64,000 bases of DNA from assembly GCA_027625915.1 (NCBI GenBank), contig JANTQA010000032.1, positions 7,564,001 through 7,628,000 on the forward strand, given 5' to 3'. Below, in pieces: positions 223 to 62,372 of the stretch (the first letter of the stretch is position 1; every line of letters begins with the position of its first letter). Under the pieces are notes generated by a model that was not told where the DNA came from, did not search any database, and worked only from the letters and a program-made list of their open reading frames with translations. The DNA is from Anaeramoeba flamelloides (lineage: Eukaryota > Metamonada > Anaeramoebidae). Both the position numbers and the translations under genes were made by a program.

Positions 223-2968
223 CCTCAACAGATAAAAATGTAATACTTTGGCATTTAGAATATGGAATGCTTGGAAAATTTAAGCATTTGGATATGGTTA
301 TTTGTATTGATTTTCACCCAAAAAATGATAAAATATTTATGTCTGGATCATTTGACGAACATTTAAGGATCTGGGATATCGTTAATAAAAAAGTATTATA
401 TTATGTTAAAGTTTCAAATTTTATCACAGCTGGTTGTTTCGATCTCACAGGTAAAACTGTTGTAGTTGGATCACAAAATGGTAGATGTTATTTTTTCGAA
501 ACAAAACAACTTGTTTATATTACTCAATTACATGTACATTCGACCCGTGGTAAAAATAAAAAAGGGAAAAAGATTACAAATATTGAATATCCAAAAGAAA
601 ATAATGTTATTTTAGTTACCTCAAATGATTCTCGAATAAGAAAATATTCTTTAGATAATTATTCATTAATTATGAAATTTCAAGGAAATATTAATAATTC
701 AAAACAGATAAAAGCTAGATTTTCGTAAGTAATTTTATCCGCATTATCACCGATTCTCGTTTTTTTGTTTTTTTTTGTTATTTTTGAAATTTTCCTTCAT
801 TTTCAATATTTTAATTTTTTTTAAATCCTCTTTATATCTCAAAAATTCTCTTTTTTATATTTTTTTTTTCGATTTTATGAATTTTGAATGAATTTTAATT
901 CAAATTAATAATTGAACTTTTTATAAATATTGTTTTTCAAAAATTTTAAAAAATATTTATAAATTTAATTTCAATTATCAAAAAAAAAAGTTCATTTGAA
1001 ATAAAGAAAAAAAATCTAAACTTGAATTAAATTAGTTAAAAGAAAATTAAAATAATAAAAAATTACTTTTTCGAAAAAAAATGACCAAAATTTCTTTAAC
1101 AGAAATAAAAATTGTTTTTTTCGAGTTCGATGAGTATGTTTTGATATATCAAATTCAAGAATTTTTCCAAAAGACGTAGTGTTTTAATCATAAATATTGA
1201 GAAAACTGAATAATAGAAAAAGGAATATCTTATGAAACTCTTCATTCTATTACAAAATAGAATATTTTAAATTAAAAATAATAATAATACTGTTAAATTC
1301 AAATGAATGTTTGAAAATTTTTGATTCTTTTTCCAATTTTTTTTACATATTGTTCCTCAGCTTTGGCTAAAATAATATACCAATGGGATCCAAATGTAAA
1401 GAAACTTTGTAAAATTAGTTGCTTTTCCAAATATTCTTTGTAAAGAACTGTTTCGAAAGTTGATTGATTCGAAGTCTAAAATAGAAACTATCAAAAATTT
1501 TTATAAATTTTTTTGAATTTATCAGTAATGACAATAAGAATAAAATCTTTGTTATTAGTCAAAATAAAGACGCATTATTCATCTTATCATTGACAAAAGA
1601 TCATGAAAATTATGTTTCTTTATTTAAATTTCTAAACAAAATTTTAGAAATTAGGGAAGTGTAATCAAGTGCCGTGGAGTGCCGTGGAGTGCCTAGCTTT
1701 TCCAGAATTCAAAAGAGTTGAGCAAAATCTATAATTTTTTCTATTCTTTTGAATTCTGGAAAATCTAATGGGGATTTTTTTTAATTCTTGGTTTGCTTAG
1801 AAAAACTATTGATTTTCTATTCAAAACAAAATTTTAAAAAAAAATCTAACAGTGGTTTTCTTTCGATTTTCTATTTTATTTTGTGAAGTGTTCTAGGTTT
1901 TTTTTACTTTTTGAAATAAACCGAAAATTTATTAAAATTTTCTGTTTATTTCAAAAAGTAAAAAAAACCTAGCGAAAATCTATTGATTTTCGGAATAAAC
2001 AGAAAACCCAAGAAAACAAAAAGACGCTCTTCCCAAATTTAAAAAAATAGAGTAAAATCTTTGATTTTACTCTTTTGTTTCAAATCCTGGAAAATCTAAT
2101 GAATGTAAGAGGAAATTACACCTCTTAGAAAGTAAAGAAAGGAAAAGAAAAAGAATATTTGATTTAAGATTTATGAATATATGGTATTTTTTTTTCAGAA
2201 ACTGGATTTAGATTTTTTGTTTTTTTGAAAATAAAATTTCCAAAGTTAACCTTTTCTTACAGAAGGTATATGATTTTTTAAAAAATTGCCTTTAATTAGG
2301 GTTTTTAATTTTTAGAAAGCTCTATGGAAAGACATATAAGTAATTCTGTAATAAGACGAATTCAAGATATGCCATGTTAAAATAAAAATTGTTATATTGA
2401 ATCAAAATAATTAATGATAATTTTTTTCTTTTAATTTTCATTACCTCATATTAATATAAAAATATAAAAAAAAAATTATAGTGAATATGGAGATTATATT
2501 ATTTGTGGGTCTGAAGATGGGTGTGTTTACATATGGAATTCCAAAAATGAGTATGCAAAAAAAAAAAAATCAAGACTAAAAAAGAAACGTAAAGATAGAA
2601 TCCAGACCTATGAAAGAATCCATGCTTGTAACAAAATTGTTACATCTACGATATTTTTTCCAAGTAATTTATATCACACAAAAATTAACGAACAAACAAC
2701 AGAGTTGGATCAATTGGGAACACAAGTTCAAAATGAAGAAAAAATTCCTAAAAAAAATAAATCAAAAGAAGAAAAATCTCTTGATTTAAAAGACCCTTTT
2801 TCAAAAAATAGTTCTAAAGAAAAAAAAACTCAGTTCATTCATAAAATTCGTAAAGAAAGTAAACCAACACTTAGAACAAAAACTCAGAATTTAATTTTTA
2901 TTACTGCTGATCAAGGTGGGTCAATAAAAGTTTTTATAAATAGAGGGAAAATTAAAAAAGACATGTAA
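223..2968 (+). CDS. WDR44-like WD40 repeat protein, 3' part (5' end outside window)
   Basis: Two exons are visible: 223-724 and 2482-2968 (stop TAA). The first opens after a TTTTGACAG acceptor and the upstream exons lie left of the window. The protein reads as successive WD40 blades: STDKNVILWHL, SGSFDEHLRIWDI, VVGSQNGRCYFFE, then VTSNDSRIRKYSL and NNSKQIKARFS, joined across the intron to ICGSEDGCVYIWN. The order of a 'NDSRIR' blade, a 'QIKA.FS' strand and a 'GSEDG.VYIW' blade is characteristic of WDR44 (the Rab11-binding protein) and its plant and protist relatives. The C-terminus holds a basic Lys-rich linker and a last blade, TADQGGSIKVFINRG. The join restores phase (TC|T). The intron is 1.76 kb and contains a palindromic repeat. 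Family homology predicts a Rab-linked membrane-trafficking adaptor; direct Rab11 binding is not shown here. The family call is strong. The last exon end is likely but could be followed by another exon, since GTAAAT overlaps the stop. Confidence 0.85.
1676..2100. repeat. Modular nested-palindrome repeat (copy in WDR44-like intron)
   Basis: The centre is an almost perfect 80-nt palindrome (1893-1972) whose arms begin CTAGGTTTTTTTTACTTTTT and end with its complement. It is flanked by inverted segments carrying 'CTATTGATTTTC' and 'CCAAG/CTTGG', and outside these by two smaller hairpins (1702-1759, CCAGAATTC...GAATTCTGG; and about 2033-2090). The whole unit therefore reads A-C-B-C'-A. Just left of it, GTGCCGTGGA is tandemly repeated at about 1669-1690. 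The same modules recur at about 12880-13210, 30795-31315, 44860-45285, 51690-51840 and 60950-61100. No coding capacity is seen. Confidence 0.75.
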
Positions 2969-4084: not shown

Positions 4085-4303
4085 TTAAACAAGAGTTAAT
4101 AACACAGTAGTTACCCTTATACATAAATTATCTATCCGAAATTTAAGCTTAACATTATAAATTTCACCATTATTAATTAATGAAAATAATTTTATACTGT
4201 CTGGATTCAAAATTAATTCATTAAGATTTATTTCTGTTAATTTATTTGGAAAAATAAATCTATTTTTTTGTAGGTGGAAATATATATCATAAAAAAGTGA
4301 CAA
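4085..4303 (-). pseudogene. Possible coding relic of unknown family
   Basis: A 72-codon open frame on the minus strand has a more protein-like composition than the surrounding chance frames (NKLTEINLNELILNPDSIKL, mixed charged and hydrophobic residues). I do not recognise the family. There is no convincing start codon context or flanking splice sites, so it is listed as a probable relic. It could equally be chance. Confidence 0.2.
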
Positions 4304-5989
4304 TATTTTCCATTATTTCTTTTGGTACATATTTTGGCATAAGAGGAAAAATTGGTTTGAGTTTTTATCTATTATATAATTATATCTATTTAGGTGGAAA
4401 AAATTCAATTTAAAGATTTTTTTTTGTTTAAAAAAAAAAACAGAAAAAATATTTCATTTCATTGAAAACCTTCATTTTATGGGTTTCTAATTAAGATCAT
4501 TTTTTTATCACCAGCCAATCTTCTTAATTTATAATTATACAGCGTGTCCAATAATCCATTTTAATATTTTAACCATGTTACAGTGGAAGAATCACATTTT
4601 TACCTTTTTTTTTTTAATTATTAATTTTAATTCATTTTTTTTATTTTTATGAAACTTAAAAAAAAAATAATTGACTTTTTGTAAAAATAATAGTTTAAAA
4701 AAGATCTAAGAATTCAGCAACTTTGGTTATTATTTTCGATAATTTTTGTTAACTTTATACATAATAATTTATAAAAAGATCTTTACTAACAATTGCGAAT
4801 ACAATTATTTTAAATATATATTTTATTGAGAAATACCATCAATTTAATAATCCAAAATATTGATAATGACTTTATAAAATCATTTTAATATCAAAATAGA
4901 AATAGTGTTTTAGACAAAAAATAAGGAAATTAACGTTTTTTTGATCAATTAAAAATATTAGTAATAAATTAAAAAAATTAAATTTTTACACATATTTGGA
5001 TTATTAAGTATCATTTAAAGATAAAATAAACCAATTTGAAACTAGTTTCTGAATTAAAAAAATATGACAGATTTCCTAATAAAACGATGATCAAAAATCC
5101 AAAATTTTTAGTATCCCTATAGCTCTTTTTTTGATTCAAGTGGTATTTTTCGAAATAAAAAATATTGCTTTATTCGAAATTATGTAGTTCTTAAGTACAC
5201 AATTAATATTTATTTTTTTAGATAAAATAAAAAAAATTTTTTTTTAAGTGGCTATAATTCTGATTTATTTATTTATTTTTGTAAAATGCAATTGAGTGCT
5301 TATTTACATAAATATATAATTAAAATCGATAAAAAAACTACTTTATCAGGTTTATAGAGCTGTTTTATCATTTTTAAAAAGAATTTATTTTTTCAATTTT
5401 GAATTTTCAGTAAAATAATCAGAGATACTTTCGGTTCAATTTTTGGATTTATAAAGAAAAAAGATAAATTTACAAAAACCTTTTTATTTTATGGAAATCT
5501 CACTTTTAGTAAATTTTGAGAGTTTACCTGAATATAGACCAATGTAAATTATATCTTATTTTAAAAATAAACGAAAAATAAATCAAATATTTAATCTCTT
5601 GAAAATCCTGAAAAAATTAATCATTTCTGTTTCCCACAAATATTTATGAGATTTGAAAAAAAGTTGAGGTAATATTTTTTTGACATATTAAGACTATAAA
5701 AAACGATCTTTTGTTCTTAAAATCAGTTATTTAATAATATTTTTTTTTAATTATTATCTTATATTATTAATTTGAATTTTTTTTATCTATTTTCAAATAT
5801 AGCAAAAACCGTTGAAAAATATTAAAAACTAGTGATTTTTTTAATCTTTGTGTTGTTGCTAACCTACTGAATTAATTAACATTGGGTTTTTAATTATTGA
5901 TTTAAAATAATCTAATTAAAAAGAATTCCTCTGGGGTTTAAGTTGAATTTCCGGTTTTTAAAAAAGTATTTTGAGTAATAATTTTTGCT

Positions 5990-11275: not shown

Positions 11276-14200
11276 CTTTAATAAATTTTTATATAAAGTT
11301 TTTTACCATTAAATATTCTATTTTCTACTTGATGTATTTTATTTAATTTTTTTTTTTATTTTTTTTTTTTTTTGAGACAAACAAAAGATTTTTCAAATAA
11401 TTCTGTTTTTATTGATCCAAATTTTTTCCAACAAATTTATTTTTTTTTTATTTCTCTTAATTCTTTGATTCCTTAAATAATGTCTTTTTTTTTTTTTAGC
11501 TTTAAAGAGATATTATTTAAATATTATTAAAAATAAAAAATATCGATTAATATTTTTTTAAACATTCCTAAATTTGATTTTTCAAATAAGTTTTTTATCT
11601 AGTTCCCTTTAAATTTTCTAACTCTCAGTTTTTAAAAAATAATTATTTAAAGAACAATATATTTCATCTACAAATTAACCTAATCTAATATTTATTGGTT
11701 ATTTTGTTATCGAAAAACTTCACACTAGTAAACTTTATCTTAATCTTAATTAAGAATCAAAAGATTCAAGTTTTAATAATATCGATAACAAAAATCATTG
11801 ATTAGTGCTTTTTCATTTTTTACTATGAATGATTAATAAGATAATTTTTTAAAATGTATCAGTTTTGATAATTTTTAAGAATATAAAAACATGTGTTAAA
11901 TCGAATTTGAAATTTTAATAGAGTTAACTTTGGAATAAGGGTGATCAAGAAAATTATGGTTAATTTGATAAGTTATTCTTTTTCATTATTTTTTCAGAGA
12001 TTCAGATGTTATAGTTAATTAACAAAGAACTCTACTAAGGGATCGATTACTGTGAAATGGGGGAAAAAATCGATACTTTTTGGAAATATTTAATCTTTTA
12101 CAATTATTTTCAAAATTTGAAGCCTGTTATTTGGATTTATAAGAATTTTTTGAAAAAAATGAATTTTTGAAGTAACCAAAATAATTTTTTCAGACAGTGT
12201 ATCTGAGTTATAATTGATGAATTACATTTTCAAAAGCATTTGAATATATATTTTGTGTAAATTTTTATTTTTTAGATTTCAAAATTGAAATCCTTTTTTA
12301 GTACTTCTCTAACTTTTTTTCTTTACAATTTATTGTTTTAAAACAGAATTATTATTTTGAAATATTGTTTTATTAAAAGATCTATGAATCTCCAAGTAAA
12401 AACATGTTTTTCTAATGTTATTGTAATAGTAGTGGTATGATCGTAGAAAAATCTTATTTATTTATATTGAAATATTCTTGTGGATCTTCAACTAAAGATA
12501 AAATTATTTTTTTTTTTTTTCTTTGAGGAATCTATGCTTTTTGGTTTTTCATTTTTTAAGAAAATATATTGATTTTTTAGATTAACTTTAAACTGGTATC
12601 AACGACTCTCCGATTTGTATTATTCTACACTTTCAATTTTTTTTTTTAAAGATTATTTCTAAAAATAATTGATTTTTAAAAAACAAAAATTTGGGAAACT
12701 TTGACAAAAACAAGGTTTATAAAAGTGTTTAGTAAATTCCTTAAATTTTTTTTTGTTGAAATTAGTGTATAAATTAAATATCTTTGAAGTTAATAAACAA
12801 TTAAAATTGATTTTTTATTGATTTTTAAATATAATTGTCAAGTGTCGTATAATATTGTACATAGTTATAGATAGTTGAGGTTTTTCAGAGTTTAAATAAA
12901 ACATTAACATCAAATATTTTCCCTTTTTCTTTTAAATTCTGGAAAATTTAATTTTTTTTTTTATTTTTGAGTTTTCTGTTTGTATTTTAAAAATCAAATA
13001 AGTTTCGAAAATGTCAATAAAATAAAATATAATAAAAACAATAACAACTTTTTTTTTTGCATTTTTAAAACCACTTCTTGAAAAATTATTAATTTCTAAA
13101 AATAAACAGCAAATTCAAAAAAGTCAACAATAATTTTCCAAAATTCAAAATAATTGATTAAAATCTTTTATTGAACTCATTCATTTAAAATTCTGGGAAA
13201 ACTAACAAAATTTCCAATTCTTATTATCCAATAATTCATAATTAATAGATATTTATAGATTTCTTTTTTTAAAATTTTTAAATTTTCTAAAACTCAATTA
13301 ATTTTATAGTTTATTTTTAGGTTGAATTTTATAAATTTTTCCAAGAAACGGGATATTTAATTTCCTAATTTATTTTTAAATTTAAATTTCTTTTTATTAA
13401 TAAAAATTACATTTTTTTTCCAATTTAACTTTGTTTTTTAAAAACAGAACATGTGTATTTCTTTTTATTTTGACTATTATAGTAATCTTTTTAATAATTC
13501 AAGAATTGAAATAATTTTATATTTAGAATAATTTTATTGTTATTACTAATCTATAAATTAATTGAAAAATATAAAAGATCTGCTTAATATCTAATTTGTT
13601 AAATTACTATTTCATTACTTTACATAAAAATAGTCCAGTTAACCTTATATTTTTTTTGACCTTTTATATATTATAAACTAAATTTCTGAAGATTTTTCTA
13701 AATAAATGTCTAATTATTGAATCCTGATAAAATCTGGTGGAATTTCAGTTTTTTTTTATTGTATCTTAATCTAAATTGTGTTATTATTTGATATATAGAA
13801 TTTAATCTACTGATTTAAATGATTTTTATTTTCTTTTATAATAAAAATTAAATCAATAGCAAACATTTGAAAATTATTTTTAAATTGAATGATTTTTAAT
13901 AAAAGAAAATGTGAAATTAGAGCAAAAGAAATAATCGATAATGAATCCCCTTGGAATATACCAAGTCCGTCACTGTGATGATATTTTAATCAAATTTAGT
14001 CTGATGATTTTATATAAAATAAATTATTGAATTGTTTTTATAATCATTATAAAACCAATTGAATCAAAATATTTTACTATACCAATCATTATAATAGATT
14101 TTTTTAAATTTTTTTATTTTTAGATTTTATTGATCTTAATATATTTTAAATATTTATCAAATTTTGTATTTATCAATATGAGTATCAGTATAACATTTTT

Positions 14201-19200: not shown

Positions 19201-22200
19201 TTCTTTTATGTTACTTTTCCTCGGCAGTTCATATGTATCCTTTATGGCAATGATGCTAAAGTTAAAATTTTTGATTTTTTTGAGGTATTTTTTCCCTTGT
19301 CTTCTAGTTTTTTCATATTTTTCATTCCCATATGAAGTGGTCTATGTCATCAATTTTCTTTTACATCATGAGCATATTTTGTCAAAAAATGGGAATTGCA
19401 GGTTATATTAATAATTTTTTTTGGTTTTTAATAAAGCTGTTGTAAAAACTGTTACTCAAACTGCCTAAAACTTGCGAACCGGGCAGTTTGGGCAACACTG
19501 ATAAAACTTTTTTAAAAATTTTTCTGAAAAGAAATGCTATTGATCGAAATCTATTACCCTTCTGGAAAAAAATAAAAATTACAAAAAAATTGTCGAATAG
19601 ATTTTAATTGTAAGCATTAGTAAAAGTGATTTTTTATATCTTGAATTCATTTATATTCTTACAATTCCCTAAATTTTTTAATTATACTTGAATATAAAAA
19701 AAATAAATAAATAATTGATTCTAATCCTCTCCCATTTAAAATCAATAGATTGATTAATGTTTATTGATCTATATTGCAAACCAAATACAGAATAAATTTA
19801 AATTTCTTTTAACTGTACAATAAAAAATCTCAATTCTCAAAAGGAGTTTTTTGAGTTTTTTTTTAATATTTTTGTAACAGCTTTTAAATTTTTAAGAATA
19901 ATATGAGAACAATCTTTTTGCTTTTTACGAATTATTTTTCTTTCAACAAATTTTAGTTTAATATTTTCACAAAATTCAAAAAGAAAAAGAAAAAATGATC
20001 AATTCTTATAATTATAATAAATAATGATTTATTTCTTTTCAAAAATAACAATTAAAATAACAATTAAAAAAATAATAAAAATAAATAAACAAATAAATAA
20101 ATAAAAAAAATAAATAAATAAAAAAAAAAATAATAAATAACAATAACAAACAAAAAATAAACAGACACAAACTGTTGTAGGTCTTTTAGTTCTTTGTTTA
20201 AACATAGGAATAGATCCACCTGATATCATTAAGCCGGATCCATGTTCTGTACTTGAATGTTGGGTTGATCCGATGCAATATTCACAAGATAAGGTGTTAA
20301 AAATGATTGGACAGAATTTAGAATCACAATTTGAAAATTTAGAACCAACGTGTAAATATTTTCAATGTCTAGATACACCAAAAATGATGTTAAAAAATGA
20401 TTGTCAGCAGTCAAGGAAATATGGCGAAAATGATCGTATATTGTTTTATTACAATGGGCATGGTGTACCAAAGCCAACAAAATCTGAAATCTGGCTGTTT
20501 AATGATGATTTTACTCAATACATTCCTGCAACTATTAGAGAAATAAAATCGTGGGTTGGTTCGCCATCTATTTATGTATTTGATTGTTATTCTGCGGGAA
20601 TTTTAGCAGATAATTTCATCAATAATAATGGCGAAAAGAAGAATCGGGATAAAAAGGAGAAAATTTCGGTAATTTTGGAAGAAACTTTAAAATGCGAAAC
20701 TTTAGAGACGATAGTTTTATTTTCATGCTCTGCTTATGAAAATTTGCCAACTGATCCCAATATGCCGGCGGATTTATTTACTTCATGCTTAACTACACCA
20801 ATTAAAATTGCGTTAAGGTGGCATATTTGTTCGAAATTTAGTTCAAATACCATCTTAAGGAATTTAAATTTAGATATTTTGGATAATATTCCTGGAAAGT
20901 TAAGTGATCGATCAACAATTTTGGGAGAATTGAATTGGATATATACATCTATCACTGATTCCATCGCTTGGAATATATTGTCAAACGATTATTTCCAAAA
21001 ATTGTATCGGCAAGATTTAATGATCGCCTCATTGTTTCGGAACTTTTTATTAGCCGAAAGGATAATGAAATCCTTTAATTGCAATCCGTTTACGATTCCA
21101 TTGATTCCTGAAACTTGTAAGCATGAATTATGGAATAGTTGGGATTATATTGTTGACTCTTGCTTATCTCAATTGAATAGTGCCGAAAATAATAAGAATC
21201 TACATTCCATAGAATACAGATTAAATAAAATGATTTTAAATAATTCAAGGGGATTTTTAACAGCCTTTTCCAAAAAAGAACAAGAACGAAAGCAAAAAAA
21301 AAAAAAAAAAAAAATGCATTTAAATCGCTCAAGCCACCGAGAAAATAATAATAATAATATAAATAATATCGAAGGTAATTCAGGCAATATTAATATAAAT
21401 AGTGGTGGTGGCGGCAATCAAGATAATAATAATAATAATTTAAGTGTCCATAATAATAATCTCAATAATAATTTTAATAACAATCAAAATTCCTTTTTCA
21501 ATGATCAATTAACTAGTTTTGAAGTTTGGTTAAGCTCTGGCAGAAATCAAAAAATTGGGGTTGGGCAATTACCAATCTTGTTGCAAGTGTTGCTGTCACA
21601 GTCCTATCGTAAACGGGCCTTACATTTATTAGCAAAATTTTTGGATTTGGGCCAGTGGGCAGTTAATAAGGCGCTATCTGTGGGTATTTATCCTTATATT
21701 TTAAGGTTGTTGAAATCGCCGGTTCCTGAATTGCGTTCTGTTTTGGTATTTATTTGGGCAAAGGTTTTGGCCTTCGAAAGAGATTGCCAAATCAATTTAA
21801 CAAAGGATAATTCTTATTTATATTTTATTAATGTTCTATCTTCGCCGACTGTTGACCAAGAGCAATATTCTTTATCTGCGTTTGCCCTATCAGTTATCCA
21901 ATCAAATTTTAAAAAGGCTAAAAGCGCTTGCCATCGATCAAACATTTTACAGATTTGCTTGTCTAGATTAGAAGATGAAGATTCAAATGTTCGGAAATGG
22001 ATTTGCTTTTGTCTGGCAAAGTATTGGGAAGATTTCGACATTGGGAAAAATGCTGCATTTAAAGAAAATGCAGACAAAATTTTAATTCAATTGCTGAACG
22101 ATAATATACCAGAGATTAGAGCTACAGCCGTGTATGCCTTATCAACCTTTTTGAGTGGATCTAAGGATAATTCCAATCAAGAAAATTCTGAAAGAATTAA

Positions 22201-25200
22201 TTCTGAAATGAAGATTTCCTTAACTTTGATTAATACATCTTCTGATATTAGCTATTTGGTGCGCTATGAATGTTTATTGGCAATCATTAAAATGATTGTT
22301 TTATATTATGAAAAAATTAAAAGAATTGTCAAAAAAACAGCAAATTACCAGTTTCATAAGAAGCTATTCTTCAATGAAAATAACAATCAAAATAATACCA
22401 ATAACAAAATTTCCAAAACTTTAAAAGAGAAAAATAATTCTAGTAATAAAAAAAATAAAAAAAATAGCAAATCAACGAAAATTAAAAGACAGCAAACTTC
22501 TCCTAATTTAAAAAAAAGCAGAGACTCAAGCCAAGATCAAAAAACTACTTCCAATTTAAATTCTCAAAAATCTTTAAAGAAAAAAAAAAAAAAAAAAAAA
22601 ATAAAAAAGCTTTTTACAAAGGAGAATTCTCAAAGTAGATCGTTAGAAAATGATTTACAAGGATCAGAATATTTTTATCAAAATTTACAAAAAAATGATA
22701 TTTCAATAAATGTAAATGATCAAAAGAATTATGGTTCTGGCTCTAGTTCGAGTTCTATTTCCAATTCAAATTCGAATTCTATTTCTAGTGAATTGAATTC
22801 AAATATCAATAAGGAAATTTCTGATGACAGGGGGAAAGAGACAGAATCAAAAACTAAAAAAACATTTAAAAATAAAATTAATATAAGGAAAAAAATCAAA
22901 AAGAAAAGAGAGAAAAGAAAGGAAAGAGAAAGGGGGAAGGGGAAGGGGAGAGGAAATGAATCAGAATTAGAACGGGATGGTGGTAAGGGAAACAAAAACG
23001 AAAGGGGGAAGAGAAATGAAAACAAACATGAAAGGGGGAAGGGGAAGGGAAACAAAAACGAAAAGGAAAGGGAAAAAGAAAAAGAAAAAGAAAAAGAAAA
23101 AGAAAAAGAAAAAGAAAAGGAAAAGGAAAGGGAAAAGGAAAAGGAAAAGGAAAAGGAAAGGAGTAAAGGAAAAAATGAAATCAAACTTGACTCTGATTTT
23201 GAAAAACCTTATTATGATTTTTCCAAGCCATTTAATAAAAATTTATATATTAAAAAAATCTTATTTCCAAATGAAGAAAAAATGACTACTTCAAAATCTG
23301 CAAGTTATTTATCTTCACAGACTTTAGATACAAAAGAAAACAATACTAGTGTTAATAATTATCATGATAATATAGTTGCCTCCTATCTTTGGGATTGTTT
23401 AATTAATTTTTCAAATGACCCATATCCATTTATTCAAATTATGGCAAATAAAATTCTTGATAAGTTTTTTATGTTTTGGTTTGAAATAGAAAAGGAAAAT
23501 CAATTAAAAAAAATTAATAATAAAAATAAAAATATTAAAAAAAATTTAAAAAATATTAATAAAAATTTAAAAAATATTAATAAAAATAAGAATTCTAATA
23601 GCAATAACGAAACTGAAAATAGAAAAAAATCAATAAAAAAAGAAAAGAAAATTAATGATAATAGTACTAAGAATAATAATGATGATGATGATAATAATAA
23701 AAATAAAAATAATAAAAACGAAAAAATTAAAAACGAAAAAAATAAAACTAATAAAATAAAAAATGAAATTAATAAAAATAATAATAAAAAGAAGAAGAAA
23801 AAAAATGAAATTAAACAAAATAAAAAAAAAACAAAAACTATAAATGGTTCAATTAAAACAAAAATTAAAAAGGGAACAAATAATATTAAAAGGGAAAATA
23901 AAACGAAAAAATTCTTAAATAATATATTAATGGAAACCAAATCCAAATTATTTGATTGGGATGTTAATTGTTTTTTAAATCCTTTATTTTTTTTAAATGA
24001 ACAAGAAAATGATCAATATGATCAATTATTTCAAAATAATAATAATGATCACGATTTAAATCAAAATCAGAATTCTAGTAGCAATAAGGAAACAATTAAT
24101 AGAAAGAATTTAATCACAAAAGAAAATAAAAATAATGATAATAGTACTAAGAATAATAATAATAATAAGAATAAGAATAATAAGAATAATAATAATAATA
24201 ACGAAAGTAATGAAGGTAAGAATAATAATTTAAATCTGATGAATCAAAATTTTAATAATAATGAAAATTTAAATTCATCAATTATTTTAAATAAAAAATC
24301 AAAAGAAAGGGTAATGTTTTCAAACAAAAATTTAATCTTGGATAATTTATTAAATGAAACTTTAAAAACAATACACTTTCAAGGAAGAATGTTAAGTCAA
24401 TTAACTTTGAATTCTCGAAATTTGCAATTAAGCAAATCTCTAAATAGCAACAACAACAATAACAATAAAAATAAAAATGGTCATGACAATAATAGTAATT
24501 TAATTCAAAAAAATAATAATGATAATCAAAATAATCTTAATCAAAGTCGGATTGATGGTAATAAAAGCATTAATGGTAAAAATGGTGACAATAATAGTGA
24601 TAATAAAAATGGTAGTAAGAATCTAAATAATAATGATGATGATAATAGTAATGATAAGAATAATAAAACAAAAAATAATAAAAATAAAAATAAAAATAAA
24701 AATTATAATGATAATCAACAAAGCAATATTGTTAATAATTTTCGTTCCCAAATACCAAAAAAATATTTAAATTATTACAAGGCAAAATCAAGAAAAAGAA
24801 TTATAGAAAGAACCAAAATAACTTCAAGAATATTATTTTCAGATGAGAATATGAAAAATGTCAAATTTGAAGAAGAAATTTCGACTATTGACTCGTCATT
24901 GACGACACCTATAAAAAAAATAATATTCCATCCATACGAAACTTATTCGATTGGTGCCAATAGTAAAAATGACATTTATGTTATGAATTGGAATAAGCGC
25001 CCATGTAAAATCATTAATAGTTTCAATAATGGCAATAACCAATCTCAAAAAATTAATTCGCTTTCTATAATTAATGATGAAAACGATGCGTTTTTAATGG
25101 TTGGCAGCAATGATGGTGTAATTAGAATCTGGAAGAATATCTGTGGCGATTCAATAAATAATGGACATAATGATCATCAAGGCAATAGGCCCCATCATTC

Positions 25201-26314
25201 ATTTTCCTTTTCTTTAGGCCAAGATCAGGATTCTGCCTTTTCCAAATTTAATTCTTATTACCGCTCCAAATATCGATTTAATAATTTTGTTGGTCCACAT
25301 CAAAATTTTTCCAAAACTGAATTAGTAACTAATTGGGTTGCCTTTCCAAAATTAAATAAATATATTAATTACCATAATATTATAAACAGCAACAACAATA
25401 ATATTGGCGGTAGTAGTAGTGGTAGCATTGGTGGCGGCGGTGGCGGCGGTGGCGGTAGTAGTAGCAGTAGTATTAGTAGTAGTGGCAGTAGTAATGATAT
25501 TCTTATTAATGGTGGCAGTGGCACTATCAATGGCAATAGCAATGGTGGTAATAATGGCAATAACGGCAATCATAATAACAACAATAATTACATGAACAAA
25601 AATAAATATAATTATTATTATGATTATGACTATGATTTTGAAAAAAATAATAATAATACTAAAATAGGACTCGTTGTGGAATGGAACCAAGATAAAGGCG
25701 AAATAATCGCGGCAAGTGATTCATCGGGAGTGATCAAAATCTGGGACGCAGAAACAGAAAAAATCAAATTGCAACTTTCAACAACATGCAATTTCCCATT
25801 AACTTGTTTGAAATCGAACGAAGACACCATTTTATATGCCGGTGCTTACGACGGATCAGTTATAATTTATGACATAAGAGAAAAGCCCAATTCCGGTTTG
25901 ATAGCGAAATTTTCCGAACACAATTCACCCATTGTAAATGTATGCACAAGAAAATTCAACACAAAAAATTTAATTTCAGGATCCAAAAATGGTCAAATTA
26001 GGTTGTGGGATCTGAGAATCAATTCTTCTGTTTGGTCGATATCAGCTTTTCAAAATAATAAGGAAATAATGACATCAATGGATGTTCACAATTTCGCCCC
26101 CTTTTTTGCAATAGGATCAAAATCCCAATTCATCAGTATTTATGACCTTGACGGCAAGTTAATCACAAATGGTAAAAAATGGAAAAATAATATTTCCACC
26201 AAACTTGCCAGTGTAAATTCAGTCAAATTCCATCCGTATAGACCTTTGTTGTCATTCAGTACAGATTCAATAGTTGCTACCTACGCTCCTCTTAATATAT
26301 CAAAAAAAAAATAA
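16300..26314 (+). CDS. RPTOR: Raptor, regulatory-associated protein of TOR (TORC1 scaffold)
   Basis: Two exons in phase 0: 16300-16440 (47 codons ending REEWKTKSK, donor GTAATT) and 20165-26314 (after AAATAAACAG), total about 2096 aa versus about 1335 in human. The join TKSK|TQTVVGLLVLCLNIG matches the human segment W-RMKDRM-KTVSVALVLCLN residue for residue in spacing. Residues ~48-375 are the caspase-like RNC domain with YNGHGVPKPT (His ~146) and VFDCYSAG (Cys ~188), then DLPADLFTSC-like and CLTTPIKIALRW blocks. HEAT-type repeats span ~495-770 (LPILLQVLLSQSYRKRALHL, LALSVGIYPYIL-like). Two long K/N/E low-complexity insertions (~782-1100 and ~1155-1600) surround a conserved SNDPYPFIQIMANKIL helix. 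The end (~1626-2096) is a WD40 propeller. Function by family: presents substrates to TOR kinase in nutrient signalling. The insertions are unusually large. Initiation at 16300 is inferred. Confidence 0.93.
17736..18109. mobile_element. Foldback MITE-like element F1, copy 1 (in Raptor intron)
   Basis: The left end (GTAAATATGGGTGTTGTAAA...GAGTTTTTACAATTTTCGAG...ATAAATAAAGA) is the reverse complement of the right end (TTTATCTCTAAAATTGTAAA...GAGTTTTTACAAC...CATATTTACACTTG). The arms exceed 100 bp each and a second, internal inverted repeat (ATCGTTTGGTGAA...TTCACCAAACGAT) sits near the centre. A second copy at 36036-36413 shares the full structure. No protein is encoded, so it is a non-autonomous inverted-repeat element. 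A clear target-site duplication could not be read; TA or TTA is possible. Confidence 0.75.
18116..19054. mobile_element. TTAA-flanked inverted-repeat element, ~930 bp
   Basis: The left end reads TTAA|GGGACTAGTCTATATTAA and the right end TTAATAGAGACTAGTCCC|TTAA, giving 18-bp terminal inverted repeats with one mismatch and a TTAA duplication on both sides. TTAA target sites are the signature of piggyBac-type cut-and-paste transposons, so this looks like a piggyBac-like MITE. The interior contains only a low-complexity open frame (18258-18536, minus) that does not resemble a transposase. It lies 6 bp right of foldback element F1 inside the Raptor intron. Near-identical ends suggest relative youth. 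Confidence 0.75.
19055..19335 (+). other. Exon-like open frame inside the Raptor intron, family unknown
   Basis: Directly after the TTAA element there is a 93-codon open frame beginning at an ATG (19054-19056). Its first ~75 codons look protein-like (KLVVIGSKMDYVLDICSGSF, VFYRDFIDFFYVTFPRQFIC) and end at a donor-like GAG|GTATTT at about 19284. The complementary strand is also open across part of it, so the coding strand is uncertain. Local base composition is less AT-rich than the surroundings. I do not recognise the family. It may be a relic of a gene or element captured in the intron, or an exon of a nested gene. Confidence 0.25.
20050..20160. repeat. (AAAT)n-like microsatellite at the 3' end of the Raptor intron
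   Basis: A run of AATAAATAAAT-type units interspersed with A tracts directly precedes the AAACAG acceptor. The usual pyrimidine-rich tract is missing here. Splice-site use still seems certain because the following exon continues the Raptor reading frame and homology. Confidence 0.7.
23063..23164 (+). repeat. In-frame K-E dipeptide tract in Raptor
   Basis: A polypurine run of AAAGAA and AAGGAA units encodes alternating Lys-Glu (KEKEKE..., with occasional EREKE). It sits inside the first large insertion of Raptor. Because the units are hexamers, length changes stay in frame. The opposite strand is correspondingly open but only as a shadow. Confidence 0.85.
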
Positions 26315-27684: not shown

Positions 27685-28500
27685 TTAATTGATTAAATCA
27701 AAAAATGTTTTATTAAAGAACTTGATTTTATTTTGGGTTTTCTTATCGATTTCATAATCTTTTATTATTTGGTTCCTTTTTTTTTCTATTTGGGAAAATA
27801 AGTCCCCTTGTAAATCCGAAAGTACTTGGTCGAGATCTGAAATCGAATTAATTATGCCAAGTTCACTTTTTTGTTTTTTTTTCAATTCAACAACCTTTTC
27901 AAATAATTTTCTTGTTTTTTCAGGTAATTTGACCTTGTTGATCAAGTCTGGTACATTTTTCATTAGTTGACCAACTTGTGAATTTTGGATCAACCATAAA
28001 GCTGATACTTGTGCTCGGATAATATATGCATATTTTTTAATTTTAACTCTCATTTGGTTTTTGATAAATCGGTTATAATTGTTTCTTGACATGTTCAAGT
28101 AATGATATATTAAGGGAACACGACATGTGTATTTAAGAATTACTTTTCTTAGCATTTCCATTTCTGTGACTTTCTCATAATACACAATGGTTGACAGTGC
28201 CCACTCCAAGACACTTGGATTAGATTTGGCGAGAAGCTTGAACATTTTCTTAATGTCCCATAATGAAAAATCAATGATCCTATCCTTTGACATGTAGTCT
28301 ATTTGCCCAAGGTAGTCAGGACTGTCGAGGGCTGTCATATACATTGACTTGTCGTTGTGATAAAAGAAACCGCGTATATCATAATCAGAATCTGGATTAT
28401 CAAAGCCCCATTCCCTTGATCCTGATTCACAACATAACAAGACTGTGATGTTATATTGCTCTTCCATTTTTCTTATCAATTCTTGTATAGTTTTTTCCAT
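27685..28500 (-). CDS. RlaP/YcgL-type predicted nucleotidyltransferase
   Basis: An intronless gene of 271 aa. The N-terminus carries the DNA polymerase beta superfamily signature CCESGSREWGFDNPDSDYDI: Gly27-Ser28 and the metal-binding Asp39-x-Asp41. It is followed by WDIKKMFKLLAKSNPSVLEW and the helix VPLIYHYLNMSRNNY, then IKKYAYIIRAQVSALWLI. This order matches the bacterial YcgL/RlaP family (PF10127, linked to RNA repair). The C-terminal ~70 residues are Lys-rich and helical. Expected activity is transfer of a nucleotide to an unknown substrate. The gene is convergent with Raptor, with about 1.37 kb between stops, and that gap holds element F2. Absence of introns beside large-intron neighbours, and the mainly bacterial spread of the family, suggest horizontal acquisition. 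Length is typical, and all visible active-site residues are present. Confidence 0.85.
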   Translation of the reverse strand: MEKTIQELIRKMEEQYNITVLLCCESGSREWGFDNPDSDYDIRGFFYHNDKSMYMTALDSPDYLGQIDYMSKDRIIDFSLWDIKKMFKLLAKSNPSVLEWALSTIVYYEKVTEMEMLRKVILKYTCRVPLIYHYLNMSRNNYNRFIKNQMRVKIKKYAYIIRAQVSALWLIQNSQVGQLMKNVPDLINKVKLPEKTRKLFEKVVELKKKQKSELGIINSISDLDQVLSDLQGDLFSQIEKKRNQIIKDYEIDKKTQNKIKFFNKTFFDLIN

Positions 28501-30470: not shown

Positions 30471-30794
30471 TTTCAAAAAAAATTATTCATTTACTAATTT
30501 TTCACTTTTATGATAACTTCACTTAGAATAAACACTATAATTTAATGAAAAATCTTGGATCAAGAATTATCTTGAAATAAATGTTAGAATTGAATTTGAA
30601 AAATCCAATTTTACAGGTTCTTTTCAGATTTTTTATAATTAAATAGTAAAAAATTGTAATATTTTTTTTACATTGTTAAGAGGTTCTAGTAAAATCTCAA
30701 AAATGATTTAAATTTAATAATATCTTTCAAATGGGTAATTATTTATTTGTACTATTAAAGAATTATTAATTGATTTATATTGAAAAAAATATTT

Positions 30795-31315
30795 TTTTTT
30801 GATTTTCGGTTAGATTTTTTTGAATTTTTTTAATAAACCGAAAATTTTTGAATTTTTCTGTTTATTTCAAAAGGTGAAAAAAACCTAGGACACTTTCGTT
30901 AGGTATACCAGAATTTAAAAGGATTGAGTAAAATCATAAATTTTTCTCTATTCATTTGAATTATGGAAAACCACCGTTATCTTTTCTTGAATTTTCTGTT
31001 TATTTGTAAAATCAATAGATTTTAGTTACGTTTTTTTGGGGTTTTCTATTTTATTTGTGAAGTTTTCTGGGGGTTTTTGGGGGGGTTTATTTTCTTTGTG
31101 AAGTGTTCTAGGTTTTTTTCACTTTTTGAAATAAACAGAAAATTTTAATAAATTTTAGGTTTATTTCGAAAAGTATAAAAAACCGAATGAAAATCTATTG
31201 ATTTGGAAAATAAATAGAAAACTCAAAAAAACTAATGGCGATTTTCCAGAACTCAGGAGAGTTGAGTAAAAGTAAAGATTTTACTATATTCTATTATATT
31301 CCAAAAAACCTAAGA
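30795..31315. repeat. Modular nested-palindrome repeat, extended copy
   Basis: It contains two B hairpins: 30804-30888 (AATAAACCGAAAATTTTT / TTTTTCTGTTTATTTCAAAA) and 31108-31184 (CTAGGTTTTTTTCACTTTTT...). It also has A modules at about 30909-30966 and 31240-31300 and C modules (TATTGATTTGGAAAATAAAT). The shared linker TTTGTGAAGTGTTCTAGG is identical to the one at about 1880 and 44980. A G-rich stretch (GGGGGTTTTTGGGGGGG) lies at about 31068-31087. Confidence 0.65.
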
Positions 31316-33879: not shown

Positions 33880-36800
33880 ATGAAGCTTATTTTAATTTCT
33901 CTATTTTTTCTTGTTCTTTTGGTTGTTCCAAGTTTCCAAGAAAAAGTAACTCCACTCGAATATCCAAGTAATAACTTTTTTTTGCGTGTTTTTTCCATTT
34001 GCCTTTTTATATTTCTATTTTGTTTGTAAAAACACAGAAAGAAATCTTTTTTTTAATGGTTTAGCAATTTCTAAAACAAGAATAATAATTCACAAACTTT
34101 ACTGTTTTCAAAAAAAAAAAAAAAAAAAAAAACCAAAAAACAAAAAAAAACAAAACACATTTTAGATGAAAAGCAATACGATGAAAAATGGAAAAACGAC
34201 GAAATGGGAACAAACGGACAAACAATTGGACAAGTTGGTTGTTTGATGAGTTCAGTTTCCAATGCAATTGCTGGCCATAACATTTTGATTGATGGAGAAA
34301 CATCGAACCCAGATACCTTGAATCAATTCTTAAGAGCAAACGATGGTTACACTGCTGATTCTGGCTTGAGACATTATGTTGTTGTCGAAGTGAATTCAAC
34401 ATTGATTGAATACGTTGGTGATGAGGACAGCATGACCAGATCTGAGATAATTGAAGCACTGCAAACAAAGACAAAGGTTTTGCTACCAAAAGTTGGAAAC
34501 CCACATTGGGTCTTGCTTACTGGTTACGATACTGAAGACGAAAGCATTTATTATGTAAGCGACCCTGGGTATGCAAAGGAGACAACAACTGTGGATGCAA
34601 TTTCTGAATGGAGAATTTACACAATGGATTTCCAGGGACCTACTCCCACCCCAGAACCAACCCCAGAACCATCACCTGTCCGACCAGTTGGGTACAATCA
34701 TTTTGACCAATGTGACGACGCATGGGGTGATGAGATCATGGGTGACGATCAGCACACTATTTGCGATGTAATTTTCAAAATCTTTTTTTAATTCTTAATT
34801 TCCAAAATTTTGCTATTTGATCCTCTCACTCTTCGTTTCTTCAAAGAACCGGAATACACCGAATTACAAGTCGTTAAAATCGTTCACAGAATTACAAAGA
34901 TTCGAATTTTGGTTTTCACATTTTCAAATTGTTTGCTAAACTCTTTTCCAATAATTATGAGCATTTAAAAACGAAAAAAAAAACTATTTTTTTCAGAATA
35001 TATTTCTTTTAATCGTTGTCATTAAAATACAAAATGCTTTATCTCGCTAATACTGAGATACCCCAAAAAAATATTTCTGGAATCCTTGTTTTTAAAAGAA
35101 GGAAAATATTTTTTCTTGAGATTATTTCTCTCTTTTAATAATTGGGTAATTTTTTGTTTTTACAAAAATTACAAAGTACAGTGGTGTAACTAACCCATGT
35201 TTTTTATTTTAACCCATTACTAAAATTTAACTCATGCAAAAAATATTGGCTGGCTCTAGAAATAAAAGAAACAAATCAATGGGATTAAAACAGTATATAA
35301 ACAAGAAATTGGGTTCTTTAAATAAATTTTAAAAAAGAATTATGAAGATACTGGAAGATTAAAATGTAATTTTTTGACAAAAAAATGAGCAAAATTTCAT
35401 TTTTTGAATTTTTAGAAAAAAATCATTTAATCTCACAAATTTTGTAAATATGATGAAATTTTTGAAACAAAAGCATTTAATATTATTTAACTATTTTGAT
35501 TAATCAAAGATCTAACCTCTAAAGTCAATTTAAATCTGAACCAAGAATCTAGAAGTGATTTCTGTTCTTCCAATACCCAAGTTTGAAAAAAAAACACGAG
35601 TTAAATTTTAGTAATGGGTTAAAGGTTGTCAACACGGGTTATTTACACGACTGTAGAATTGAAAAAAAAAAAAGAGGTTTAAAATTTTCGGATAGCACAT
35701 CCCAAATTATAACTGGGCTAAAATTATTGGAAAAGAGTTTAGAATTTGAAATTTTCACTGGTTAAAACTTTCGGTTCATTTTCTTTTTTAACTTTCTTTC
35801 CTTTTCGATACTTACTTTAAGCGACTAGTAACCATAAAAAAAACCTTCGAGTAAATTTAAAGCAAATTCAAAAAAACTTTTGCTGTATCTTGAAATTGAA
35901 AAAGAAAGCAAAATCCTGATGACTATAATTCCAAACATGACTTTATTTAAAAGCTATTTTCAGAAATGAATTATTCGTTTTTAAAAGTCTTGATCCATTT
36001 TTCCCATTTCCAAAAAGTTCAAAATTAAACTTATTCACAAGTGTAAATATGGAATGTTGTAAAAAATAGAGTTTTTACAATTTTAGAGATAAATAAAGAT
36101 TTCCATAAATTTATACAAACTTTGGTAATAGTAAAAGAAATACTCCGTTTTGATTTTTGAGCTCAAAGGGATTTTCAATATAAAATCGTTTGGTAAATAC
36201 CAATACTTTGTTTGAAAAATGATTTTTTTTTTAAAAAATTAAAAGATTGGTATTTACCAAATGATTTTTTTGATTAAAATTAACATTAGTTTATTACGAT
36301 AATCAGATATTATATTTACTATTACCAAAATTTGGATAAATGAATGGAACTCTTTATTTATCTCGAAAATTGTATAAACTCTATTTTTTACAAAATTCAT
36401 ATTTACACTTGTATTTTGAAATTATTTCAAAAAAAAAAATATTTTCTTTTCTGAAAAAAGAAATCTTATTTTCTCTGAAGAAAGGAAACATATAAAAACA
36501 TACTTTAAAAAATGAAATCACTAAGTTTTGAAAAAACTCAGAAAAGAAAAATCTACTACATTTCCAAAAAAAATTGCAATAATTATTTTACACTTGAAAA
36601 AAAATATGATTTGCTTTTTTAGACTCAGATTTCGAAACAAATTTTTCTTTTTGTTTAATCAAAAAAATATGAGAAAAACAACCAAATCTATTAAATTAAA
36701 AATGCACCCAAAATACTTTTTTAAAACCTGGAAAAATCAACGGAAAACCTAAAATAACTACTTTCCCATTTGTTTATTTATTAAATAATAATTAAGAACC

Positions 36801-42248: not shown

Positions 42249-42704
42249 ATGAAAATTTACTCAAAAAAATTCAAAAAACAGAATAAAAAAAAACTAAAAA
42301 TACTTATTAAATTTGATTATTTACCAAACAAAGAAATAAATATTTGGAAAATAGAATCTTTTAATGTTTTAAAAAAAAAGATAAAAAATGTATATCTAAA
42401 TAATTTGAAAAACAACCAAAGTTGGAAAATATAAGAATACTGCAAAAGTATCAAAAATGAAAAATTGAATTTTACAAGAAAAAATTATCAAAAATTTAAA
42501 TCAGGTACTACATTCCTCAAATTTAGAACTTTTAAAAATAGACTAAATAGATACTCATATACCTTAAAAAATAAATCTGAAAATAACATATTGAAAAAAA
42601 AAATGGAAAACTGTAAAAAATGTGATTATTGTAACCAATATTACAGAAATAAAAACCATTTCCTTTGGTCCTGTGAAAGATATCAATTTATAAGAATCAA
42701 ATGA
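42249..42704 (+). mobile_element. LINE-like 3' fragment with terminal CCHC-type zinc motif
   Basis: The frame ends in TTFLKFRTFKNRLNRYSY and a zinc-binding motif KKCDYCNQYYRNKNHFLWSC followed by ERYQFIR. The spacing is C-x2-C-x8-H-x4-C. This arrangement, a 'LR.g...l..y' block followed by a C..C...H....C knuckle and an aromatic-x-x-I-R tail, is typical of the C-terminal region downstream of reverse transcriptase in non-LTR retrotransposons. No reverse-transcriptase or endonuclease block is visible upstream, so the piece is 5'-truncated, as LINE copies usually are, and the frame is interrupted at least once. A host zinc-finger relic is the alternative. Confidence 0.45.
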
Positions 42705-44859: not shown

Positions 44860-45285
44860 TGTCCTCAATTGCAGTAGATTTACTAGATTTTTTCGGGTGT
44901 TTATGTTTTATTTGTTAAGTGTTATAGGTTTTTTTTTTTTTTTTTTTTTTTTTTGGGGGGGGGTTCTATTATGTTTGTGAAGTGTTCTAGGCTTTTTTGA
45001 TGTTTTCTATTTTATTTGGTAAATCTATTTATTTGGAAAATCAATAGAAAACTCAAGAAAACCGCACGAAAATTATTGATTTTCCAAATAAACAGAAAAC
45101 TCAAGAAAACCTAACAGTTTTTTTCCATAATTCAAAAGAATAGCGAAAAAAGCATAGATTTTACTCTATTCTTTTAAATTCTGGAAACTCTATTGGCAGT
45201 TTTTTTTAATTTAAGAAATAAACAAAAAAATTAAATAAATTAGGGTTTATTTCTGAAATTAAGAAAAAAACCTAACAGCAAATAA
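44860..45285. repeat. Modular nested-palindrome repeat, copy
   Basis: Contains the linker TTTGTGAAGTGTTCTAGG, C modules (ATTATTGATTTTCCAAATAA ACAGAAAACTC), an A module (about 45126-45190, TTCAAAAGAATAG...CTATTCTTTTAAATTC) and a shortened B hairpin at about 45203-45272 (AAGAAATAAACAAAAAAATT / TTTATTTCTGAAATTAAG). A 27-nt T run followed by G8 lies at about 44932-44963. Confidence 0.6.
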
Positions 45286-51689: not shown

Positions 51690-51840
51690 AAATTCAATGG
51701 AGTGCTTAATAAATATTCTGTTTATTTCTCAAAAAAAAAAAAAAAAAAAAAAAGGGAGTTCACTTTGCTAAAAAATCAAAGAATAGAGAGCAATAAAAGA
51801 TTTTATTCAATTCTTTTTAAATTCTTAAAAAAACGCCAAA
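51690..51840. repeat. Modular nested-palindrome repeat, fragment
   Basis: Has CAATGGAGTGC, ATTCTGTTTATTTCTCAAAA, an A24 run and an A module whose arms read AAAATCAAAGAATAGAG and GATTTTATTCAATTCTTTTT. Only part of the full A-C-B-C'-A order is left. Confidence 0.4.
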
Positions 51841-52254
51841 TAACTGGTTTCGTTTTTAATGCATAAACTTTGAACGAAATTTAAGGAACCGAAAAAACTC
51901 AAAATTAAAGCACATTATTCAAATTCTAGTAAAATAATTTGTGTAAAAAAAAATTCCAAAAAAATATGCTTTAAATTGAGATTTTTTTGTACCTTAGATT
52001 ATGTTATAAATTTGTGTCTTAAAAAGGGAACTTAGTGTAAGATGTTTTTGAATTTTTATTTTAGCTGGAAAATTAATAGATTTTCTAATCAAAAACAACA
52101 GTTATGGAAAAAACACAGGTATTATAAAACACAACTTTTTATTTTTTATACTTTTTACCTTTTCCAAATTTCCCTTCTTAAGTTACTTGGGCTCTATGTT
52201 CCTTCTCTTTTTGTTTTTTTAGGTGTTTGGGAAAGGTAAAAAGTATAAAAAATC

Positions 52255-60728: not shown

Positions 60729-60949
60729 TGTTGGTTACTGAGTGTCTAATTATATTACTTGAAAGATAAAAATTGTTAATTACAAAGTGAAAAATGCTTA
60801 TTTATCATTGATAATCTTTTATTAGGTTCTTACCACTCTTAAATAATTATTGGAAGTGTGACCCAACCTTATAGATTTTCAAAAATTTAATTGAATATGA
60901 TTTAATCTTTGATTATAACTCCTTATTACAATTCTGTGAATGTTGACAA

Positions 60950-61100
60950 CAATTATCTAGAATTCAAAATACTTTACGATTATCATTGATTTTACTCAAT
61001 TCTTTTAAATTTTGGAAAACGAACGACATTATTTTTAATTTTTAAATTAAATGGTAAATTTTCTTTTTATTTATTAAATTAAAAAAAAACTCAATGATAG
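60950..61100. repeat. Modular nested-palindrome repeat, fragment
   Basis: AGAATTCAAAATACTTTACG, ATTGATTTTACTCAATTCTT and TTTAAATTTTGGAAAACGAA correspond to the A module. It is followed by a poor match to the B hairpin (TTTAATTTTTAAATTAAATG / TTTATTAAATTAAAAAAAAA). Confidence 0.35.
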
Positions 61101-62372
61101 TGGATTTATTTTGATTATTTTCATCTAAATATTATTATTATTTTATTATTCTAATATTTTTCTTTCTTTTCCCTTTTCACTCTTGAAAATTTTTCTTGAA
61201 TTACTACTTTCTTTCAATAAACAATAATGAATAAAAATTCCATTCACTTTCAATAATTAACTATCTGGGTTTTTTTTTAACAATTATAATTACACAGTTT
61301 AATTTATTCTTTAATATTGTTAATATTGGCAAAATTAATATTATTGTTATTACCCGAATAAGAAAAAAAAGTAAATGTTTAGCAAATCGATCACCAATTT
61401 CCCAAGCTCCATAAATAAAAAAAAATTAAAAAAATTCGAACTTTCATAAATTCTAGGAATTATTTTTATACATTTTGAAAAAAAACGATCATTTTTAGAT
61501 TTTATAATCAAAATCAGTCTTTAAAATATTATACCATTCTAATACTGTCTCAAAATAACTTTATCATACCTCCTAATGATTTTTAAATGTACTTAATTTT
61601 GGGAAAATAAATAATTTGTAAAATTTCGTCAAATTCTAAATTGTTTTAAAATAGTGAATTCAATTGAAATCAATTATCTATAGGTATTTTAAAAAACGCT
61701 TTTTTTCAGGCAATTTAATGAATGTTAATGTAATTTAGGCCAGAGTTTGGAGGTTGGGATCGTTTGGATGGTATGTTAATGTATTTTGGCAAGGATTTTG
61801 AAAAAAAAAAAAAAATAAATTAAGAGAGGGATCAAAAAAGCATAATTTTTTTTGAAGATAAAAAATTTTCACATAACTTTATGGTTAAAATTGGGTTTCA
61901 AAAAAAATTTTCTTACAATATTGAGTATTGATGATTTCAATATTTTGGATTGTAAACAATTTAAGTAATAAAATACTACTAATCAAAAAATATTCTTTTT
62001 GTTTTTTTCCTCCAACAATTCTTAAAAACCCATTAAAAACTTTTGTAGCAATGAAAATAATCAAGAAACTCTTCAAAAATAAGACAAAAAATTTCAAAAT
62101 TGATTAAAATTTGGAATTTAATAATATATACTTGATTTTCCTTCACATATTATTATAAATCGTAATCAGACAGCTCATAGCCTTTCCAAAATGTATAATA
62201 ACAATACTTTATAAATATAAGAATAAATTTGAGTAATAACTTGCAAAAAAAAAAAAAAAAAACAAGAGGGGAGTGAAACAAAAGAAAATTAGTAATTTAT
62301 TTATATAATACAGTTATGAATAAAAATCAAAAAAAAATTATTTTTCAAATTTTCTATTGACAAATTATTAAT

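Follow-up and report, generated by a model that had tools for sequence, protein, structure and literature searches.

Near the left end of the window, by which we mean the whole stretch of 64,000 nt of Anaeramoeba flamelloides DNA analysed here, a cluster of nested palindromes raises the question of what kind of element it represents and how it spreads. The original prediction described protein-free units of A-C-B-C'-A layout and considered foldback transposons, templates for double-stranded RNA or sites of instability. In the reading that we regard as probable, the cluster is an array of hairpin cassettes that rides as a passenger on LINEs, where it occupies fixed sites, gains and loses cassettes and passes between LINE lineages.

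Anatomy of the window copy

Table 1. Features of the window copy and further arrays in the window.
Feature	Position	Strand	Basis or remark
LINE ORF C-terminal remnant (...FILSLTKDHENYVSLFKFLNKILEIREV)	1491..1661	+	stop at 1662-1664
Leader of ~10-nt units (TCAAGTGCCGTGGAGTGCCGTGGAGTGCC), opening the array	1665..1693	+	direct reading of sequence
A hairpin cassette (CCAGAATTC...GAATTCTGG)	1692..1771	+	34-pair helix in RNA fold
Second hairpin, B2-like	1772..1847	+	29 pairs in RNA fold; similar hairpins at other loci
C left arm	1855..1881	+	22 pairs with 1993-2017 (RNA fold)
Linker TTTGTGAAGTGTTCTAGG	1880..1897	+	exact 18-mer
B palindrome, nested between C arms	1893..1972	+	arm comparison and RNA fold
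Small hairpin 1973-1992, then C right arm 1993-2017	1973..2017	+	RNA fold
Degenerate right A hairpin (A')	2033..2090	+	RNA fold; A-alignment row window:2024-2098
LINE 3'-end terminal hairpin, decayed in window	2104..2129	+	RNA fold
Another array, degenerate; flank class not clear	12875..13210	.	array search
Further array, fam2 repeat on both sides	30790..31313	+	array search and flank signatures
Further array, LINE ORF end (KFLNKNLGIQEV, by eye) left, third tail type right	44872..45281	+	
Array fragment	51706..51831	.	array search
Array fragment	52037..52098	.	array search
Array fragment	60946..61112	.	array search

The array adjoins, at 1667, the C-terminal remnant of a LINE reading frame directly, which is at odds with a protein-free unit. 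A profile of the LINE C-terminus matched this remnant at profile positions 128-184 with an i-E of 6e-18. Its nucleotide identity to seven other loci was 76-86%, and ~125 bp of it could be aligned with LINE copies elsewhere. Judged by its sequence, what the window contains is the 3' end of a 5'-truncated LINE, with an array at the third of the insertion sites described below.

The almost perfect 80-nt central palindrome was confirmed, its 38-nt arms (1893-1930 and 1935-1972) being 97% complementary and separated by 4 nt. The predicted modules were likewise present, but their order in the modelled RNA fold fits A-B2-C(B)C'-A' better than A-C-B-C'-A; the hairpin B2 is apparently what had been counted as C. 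As to the outer A hairpins, the left one stood (arms 1694-1726/1735-1767, 85% complementary; exact matches to CCAGAATTC at 1702 and to GAATTCTGG at 1751), whereas the right one is degenerate. The terminal hairpin scored 15 against the tail signature, a weak match at a threshold of 13; less decayed versions at other loci read GAGGAAATTAATTTCCTCCCTTCAAAATAAAAAA. Leader units of like kind were seen by eye at other loci, with one to ~eight per array. At L047, at LINE site 3, the leader comprises ~eight ~10-nt units (AGTGCCATAG and variants), and the number of tandem repeats varies between copies.

A genome-wide family of hairpin cassettes

The exact 18-mer linker occurs in 2,747 copies (1356 forward, 1391 reverse) in the genome (254 Mb, 76 contigs), and the reversed control gave 0 + 0. 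In the window, arrays were detected by the array search in all regions for which further copies had been predicted (~12.9, 30.8-31.3, 44.9-45.3, 51.7 and 61.0 kb). The claim that these copies keep the linker held in part: it is exact at only three places in the window (1880, 31095 and 44974) and not kept in the copies near 12.9, 51.7 and 61.0 kb. With up to 3 mismatches the linker was found at 5 places in the window, compared to a chance mean of 0.09, and this number was reached in 0 of 100 shuffles.

For comparison of loci we used L001-L060, which combine two sets of 30: the first matches to the linker on contig C1, and the loci most similar to the window copy. This sample is not random, and the overlapping loci L008, L012, L014, L015, L019, L027 and L028 were removed, as was L031, which is identical with the window copy. 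From the 4678 first-look candidates of a genome search with window positions 1640-2130, 40 were scored. The unit that emerged is a cassette, i.e. a hairpin of 65-80 nt with TAGGTTTT...AAAACCTA as its usual boundaries. Cassettes are either nested or joined through ~10-nt units (GTGCCGTAGA, GTGCCGTCAA), and a typical insert has GTGTC at its start and CCTAACG at its end. The order of cassettes differs between loci. Rather than sharing only short AT-rich motifs of no common order or ends, the copies thus form a modular genome-wide family with shared ends.

Rfam returned no match to a known structured RNA at gathering score and ARAGORN, run with the bacterial code, no tRNA in the window and seven loci. 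A SINE was therefore rejected, no tRNA-, 7SL- or 5S-derived head being found there by either program. IMG/VR contained 13 stretches with the exact 18-mer, at a GC content of 43-50%, and the 35 array matches were 18-19 nt long among the matches listed; in view of this GC content and length, viral relatives were discarded as chance matches. A flavodiiron-like fragment was noticed in L064.

The carrier of the arrays

At eight loci, 109-449 bp to the left of the array were alike between pairs, no pair reaching a full-length copy. This sequence codes for a protein end (in L032: ...WDCPFYEKNGTTWIKKLIQINKNN..FILSLVNDKENYDSLLKFLNKNLEIRE), and several arrays are followed on the right by the hairpin GAGGAAATTAATTTCCTC and then CCTTCAAAATAAAAA. 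A-rich 3' tails are present in L032, L042, L047, L048, L051, L055, L056 and L079. Two queries from the C-terminus were run against the genome; out of 5951 first-look candidates for one and 9893 for the other, 150 each were scored. Within one open frame of 490 aa, an RVT_1 domain (C75:2584889-2585515) and the C-terminus (C75:2585645-2586025) were found together. The reverse transcriptase (RT) piece of this copy (L097) matched Pfam RVT_1 at 1.8e-21, and its nearest PDB entries were LINE-1 ORF2p (4.6e-7) and then R2 (1.6e-5). With its RVT_1 domain, a C-terminal CxxC...HxxxxC motif, 5'-truncated copies and an A-rich 3' tail, the array carrier is by its sequence features a LINE (non-LTR) retrotransposon. 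Of 191 candidates for the endonuclease family PF14529, 150 were scored and 5 weak matches obtained; three of these (C11, C33, C13) lay upstream of RVT_1 matches in LINEs not tied to the array family. By eye, no target-site duplication could be made out for two carrier copies, the window copy and L042.

A truncated LINE with a site-1 array at L067 (8817-9574) ends in its tail, and another LINE lies close behind, whose RT (C37:3912964-3913593) is free of stops and is followed after 531 nt by a single-hairpin junction.

Arrays occupy three fixed sites that also exist in empty form

Insertions were found at three fixed positions of one LINE family. Site 1 (..YNNNINKQ / KYLKW..) interrupts the LINE ORF, site 2 (HFLWD / CP) falls within the terminal Cys/His motif, and site 3 is located where the ORF ends, immediately ahead of the terminal hairpin and the A-rich tail. 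All three are empty in L079, whose frame is open over the stretch analysed and whose tail is present. Its empty sites read AACAAACA-ACAAAAATATTT (site 1), TATGGGA-CTGCCC (site 2) and TTAGAAATTAGGG-CTGTAAGAGGAAATTAATTTCCTCC (site 3). In filled form, site 1 reads AACA + insert GTCGTGTC...CCTAACG + ACAAAAAATATTT in L071, with small changes in L072, L074 and L075-L078. In L033, site 2 reads TGTGA + insert TCGTGTCG...CCTAACG + ACTGC, and the ORF picks up again as CLAYENNRKIW; site 3 reads TTAGGG + insert AAAGTGTCG... + GCTGTAAGAGG in L032 and similarly in L042. By our reading of the junctions, filled and empty versions differ at each of the sites by the insert and about one base.

A census of the genome was based on junction patterns at up to one mismatch. 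For site 3, two 18-mers with 14 letters in common detected 226 empty (109 + 117; control 1) and 502 filled junctions (271 + 231; control 4). For site 1, a 24-mer for the empty state and 18-mers with five LINE-flank letters for the filled states gave 512 empty, 65 single-hairpin and 190 array-type junctions (controls 0); as these patterns differ in length and place, the counts indicate that all states are common and do not give exact proportions. Site 2 was seen in a few empty and filled versions only.

The filled versions of site 1 form a series, assessed by eye. A single hairpin is present in L071 and L075 (~95 nt) and in L072, L073 and L074; its ends are nearly alike in L071, L072, L074 and L075, and the right end is decayed in L073. 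L076 carries two hairpins, L077 three, and L078 four including a nested one. Apart from a few changes, L076 and L077 have the hairpin of L071 in right-most position, and the right-most hairpin of L078 resembles that of L072. From this series of one to four hairpins we conclude that the number of cassettes changes and the ends stay, and the expected variation in module number was borne out.

In a tree of 16 copies built from site-1 flanks (midpoint root), the filled L073 grouped with the empty L093 and L094, and the filled L047 and L056 fell among the empty L032, L070, L079 and L095. FastTree supports at these nodes were 0.65-0.96 and the copies were not randomly drawn, so the alternation of filled and empty copies speaks for several changes of state, leaving their number and direction aside. 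Distances from RT to site 1, a hand-picked part of the listed places, were 531-538 nt for empty (C28, C1, C48, C61), single-hairpin (C37) and array-bearing (C9) copies; three other pairs were at 619 nt (C46), 888 nt (C19) and 924 nt (C16). The RT frame contains no stop in C28 and C37, one in C1 and C9, and two in C48 and C61. The C1 copy has a site-3 insert in its 3' part (L096), and this insert begins with an A cassette.

Flanks of the arrays are partly unlike

To the loci compared we added window arrays, which gave a set of 56 arrays (52 loci and four from the window). With the threshold for each hand-typed signature exceeding the highest score among 112 reversed flanks, 44 of 56 arrays had a LINE-type flank, 6 another repeat only and 6 none, counts that include trivial self-matches of the set loci from which signatures were taken or blended (L033, L037, L044, L047 and L057 for LINE types; L023 and L060 for others). 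Raising the threshold by a margin of 3 changed these numbers to 35, 9 and 12, a margin of 5 to 34, 9 and 13, and a margin of 8 to 28, 8 and 20. The LINE-derived flanks (44 of 56, or 34 or 28 at the stricter margins) contradict the idea of a stand-alone unit. A LINE flank is missing in at least 12 arrays, a number that rises to 22 with a margin of 5 and to 28 with a margin of 8, and 6-9 of these show only an unclassified repeat (fam2, fam5) at their flank. The fam2 context applies to L007, L039, L041, L046, L060 and the window array at 31 kb, the fam5 context to L010, L017 and L023.

Several arrays join flanks that do not belong together. They lead from site 1 to the tail in L004, L050 and L051, and from site 2 to the tail in L011 and L055, with L026 just over threshold. 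In L044, site 1 is joined to a fam4-type tail that resembles the tails of L005, L020, L034 and L037, loci which carry the ORF end of another LINE family. Site 3 is joined to fam2 in L038 and, weakly and near threshold, in L029.

Folding and covariation of the cassettes

The RNA fold of window positions 1676-2145 reached -143.2 kcal/mol, compared to -84.7 +/- 6.0 for 100 shuffles (z -9.8), and a second array (L033) gave a z of -21 against shuffles. Compensatory changes in the arms, which the original prediction named as support for a structured element, were detectable in B cassettes and not in A cassettes. In the B alignment (98 hits minus the duplicate L031, i.e. 97 cassettes, 96 of them distinct) 84.0% of cells pair, and the covariation score of 0.136 exceeded the shuffled mean of 0.079. 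None of 500 shuffles reached this score, and slid versions stayed at or below 0.058. The outermost five pairs were formed in only 52% of cells, and much of the covariation comes from a small number of subtypes (ACTTTTTGAAA, ACTTTAGAAA and AATTTGAGAAA, each paired with a matching partner), so that few events are counted. Among the 62 aligned A cassettes (64 hits minus two L031 duplicates) 85.0% of cells pair, and covariation was not above shuffles (0.069 vs 0.070; 304/500). It is therefore only in B that paired change is demonstrated. A pattern like that expected from selection on RNA could also be left by template switching in DNA that corrects palindromes.

A probable passenger of LINEs and alternative explanations

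The location of the arrays, their empty and filled states, the growth series and the unlike flanks are directly observed. In the passenger reading, the array would be transcribed as part of the LINE RNA and copied with the LINE by target-primed reverse transcription. Its number of cassettes would shift via slippage or switching between similar hairpins, and template switching or gene conversion might carry arrays from one LINE lineage to another. The near-identical junctions across LINE clades could instead reflect one old insertion followed by precise losses. Since inserts at sites 1 and 2 break the ORF, we think that the array most likely travels along as a selfish or neutral component.

More tentatively, and with some doubt on our side, the hairpin cassette itself may be a parasite of LINEs. 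As a structured RNA, it would move from one LINE RNA to another while these are reverse transcribed, by template switching into and out of hairpins at preferred positions, multiply as an array and spread through divergent LINE families without a protein of its own.

We consider it unlikely that the unit is a foldback or MITE-like DNA transposon preferring LINE targets, i.e. a single hairpin GTCGT...ACGAC moved by a transposase encoded elsewhere. The single-hairpin inserts at site 1 (e.g. in L071) are indeed almost perfect inverted repeats whose outer ends, GTCGT and ACGAC, match each other, and arrays sit at a fixed place in at least one other repeat family. However, we read no constant target duplication at any of the three sites, only the insert and about one base, the left ends differ by site (GTCGTGTC, TCGTGTC, AAAGTGTC), and the identical few LINE positions recur many times. 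These observations argue against the foldback transposon considered originally.

Similarly improbable is a functional 3' structure of the LINE, serving RT recognition, export or stability and lost by some subfamilies. The position of site 3 just before the terminal hairpin and tail, the strong folding and the covariation in B would fit such a role, but 226 site-3 junctions lack an array, and L079 combines an open C-terminal frame and a tail with no array. Moreover, sites 1 and 2 interrupt the ORF, and A cassettes do not covary beyond shuffles.

Very little speaks for an intron-like insert that is removed from the RNA, letting the LINE ORF survive insertion at site 1. CTAAC near the right end of the insert resembles a branch-point motif, and a frame-keeping GT..AG pair exists in three of eight site-1 inserts (L071, L072, L075). 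However, the other five have no GT..AG pair that restores the frame, and with 3-5 donors tried per insert we estimate that some fits are expected by chance. The right junction CCTAACG/ACAAAAAATATT has no AG, and site 3 needs no splicing. A spliceosomal intron was rejected because excision restores the frame in only three of the eight. We give practically no credence to an artefact of composition or assembly: the genome is AT-rich (23% GC in the window) and palindromes can mislead long-read assembly, but 2,747 linker copies face 0 reversed ones, hundreds of junctions face 0-4 in controls and cassette order differs between loci, and the reversed-pattern control and the shuffles rule out composition.

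Relation to known systems

Our searches of open-licence PMC papers brought up no title or abstract that describes LINE-borne hairpin-cassette arrays. From known LINEs the array-bearing ones differ by variable hairpin arrays at fixed ORF positions and at the ORF end. Among the closest known systems, TRE5-A of Dictyostelium is described as a non-LTR element with an oligo(A) tail and UTRs built of A-, B- and C-modules, A and B at the 5' end and B and C at the 3' end, which are parts of its own UTRs (PMC5911963). It shares with the array carriers that it is a protist LINE with modular ends; unlike the modules of TRE5-A as described there (PMC5911963), the cassettes are variable in number, break into the ORF and are missing in many copies. 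Tetris of Drosophila virilis, described as a foldback DNA transposon with terminal inverted repeats, shares with the arrays a modular, rearranged build, inverted repeats and an apparently nonautonomous nature, whereas the arrays are carried at LINE positions and show no constant target duplication (PMC4079207). Hairpin-forming repeats of sponge mitochondria resemble the cassettes in repeated invasion and scattered distribution, but are described from mitochondrial intergenic regions, whereas the cassettes are LINE-borne and grouped in arrays (PMC2800124). In LINE-1 chimeras, LINE copies are joined to foreign RNA, and the available description mentions neither hairpin cassettes nor fixed recurrent sites (PMC13174262); by analogy, a similar process could be a route for arrays between lineages. 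The descriptions of TRE5-A, Tetris and the sponge elements mention no variable hairpin arrays at fixed LINE-ORF sites with matched empty sites.

If the passenger reading holds, one genome would provide a natural record of a structured RNA entering, growing in and moving between LINEs, with one and the same site empty in hundreds of cases, filled by a single hairpin in dozens and by an array in hundreds. Provided that transfer occurs during reverse transcription, template switching of LINEs on hairpins would be directly measurable. Arrays would place long double-stranded stretches in any LINE transcript that carries them, and they bear on host silencing of retrotransposons.

Other features of the window

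Two more places with C-terminal sequence of the same LINE family, at 4115-4300 plus 4319-4426 (-) and at 42435-42698 (+), have no array beside them. A separate inverted repeat at 36052-36398 (91-nt arms, 88% complementary, 165 nt apart) was missed by the array search, and another one at 52141-52253 (28-nt arms, 96% complementary, 57 nt apart) adjoins an array fragment. The window also encodes an RlaP family protein at 27688-28500 (-) (PF10127, 4.3e-46; 'RNA repair pathway DNA polymerase beta family') and a Raptor homologue at 20273-26311 (+) (Raptor_N 1.5e-35, HEAT, WD40).
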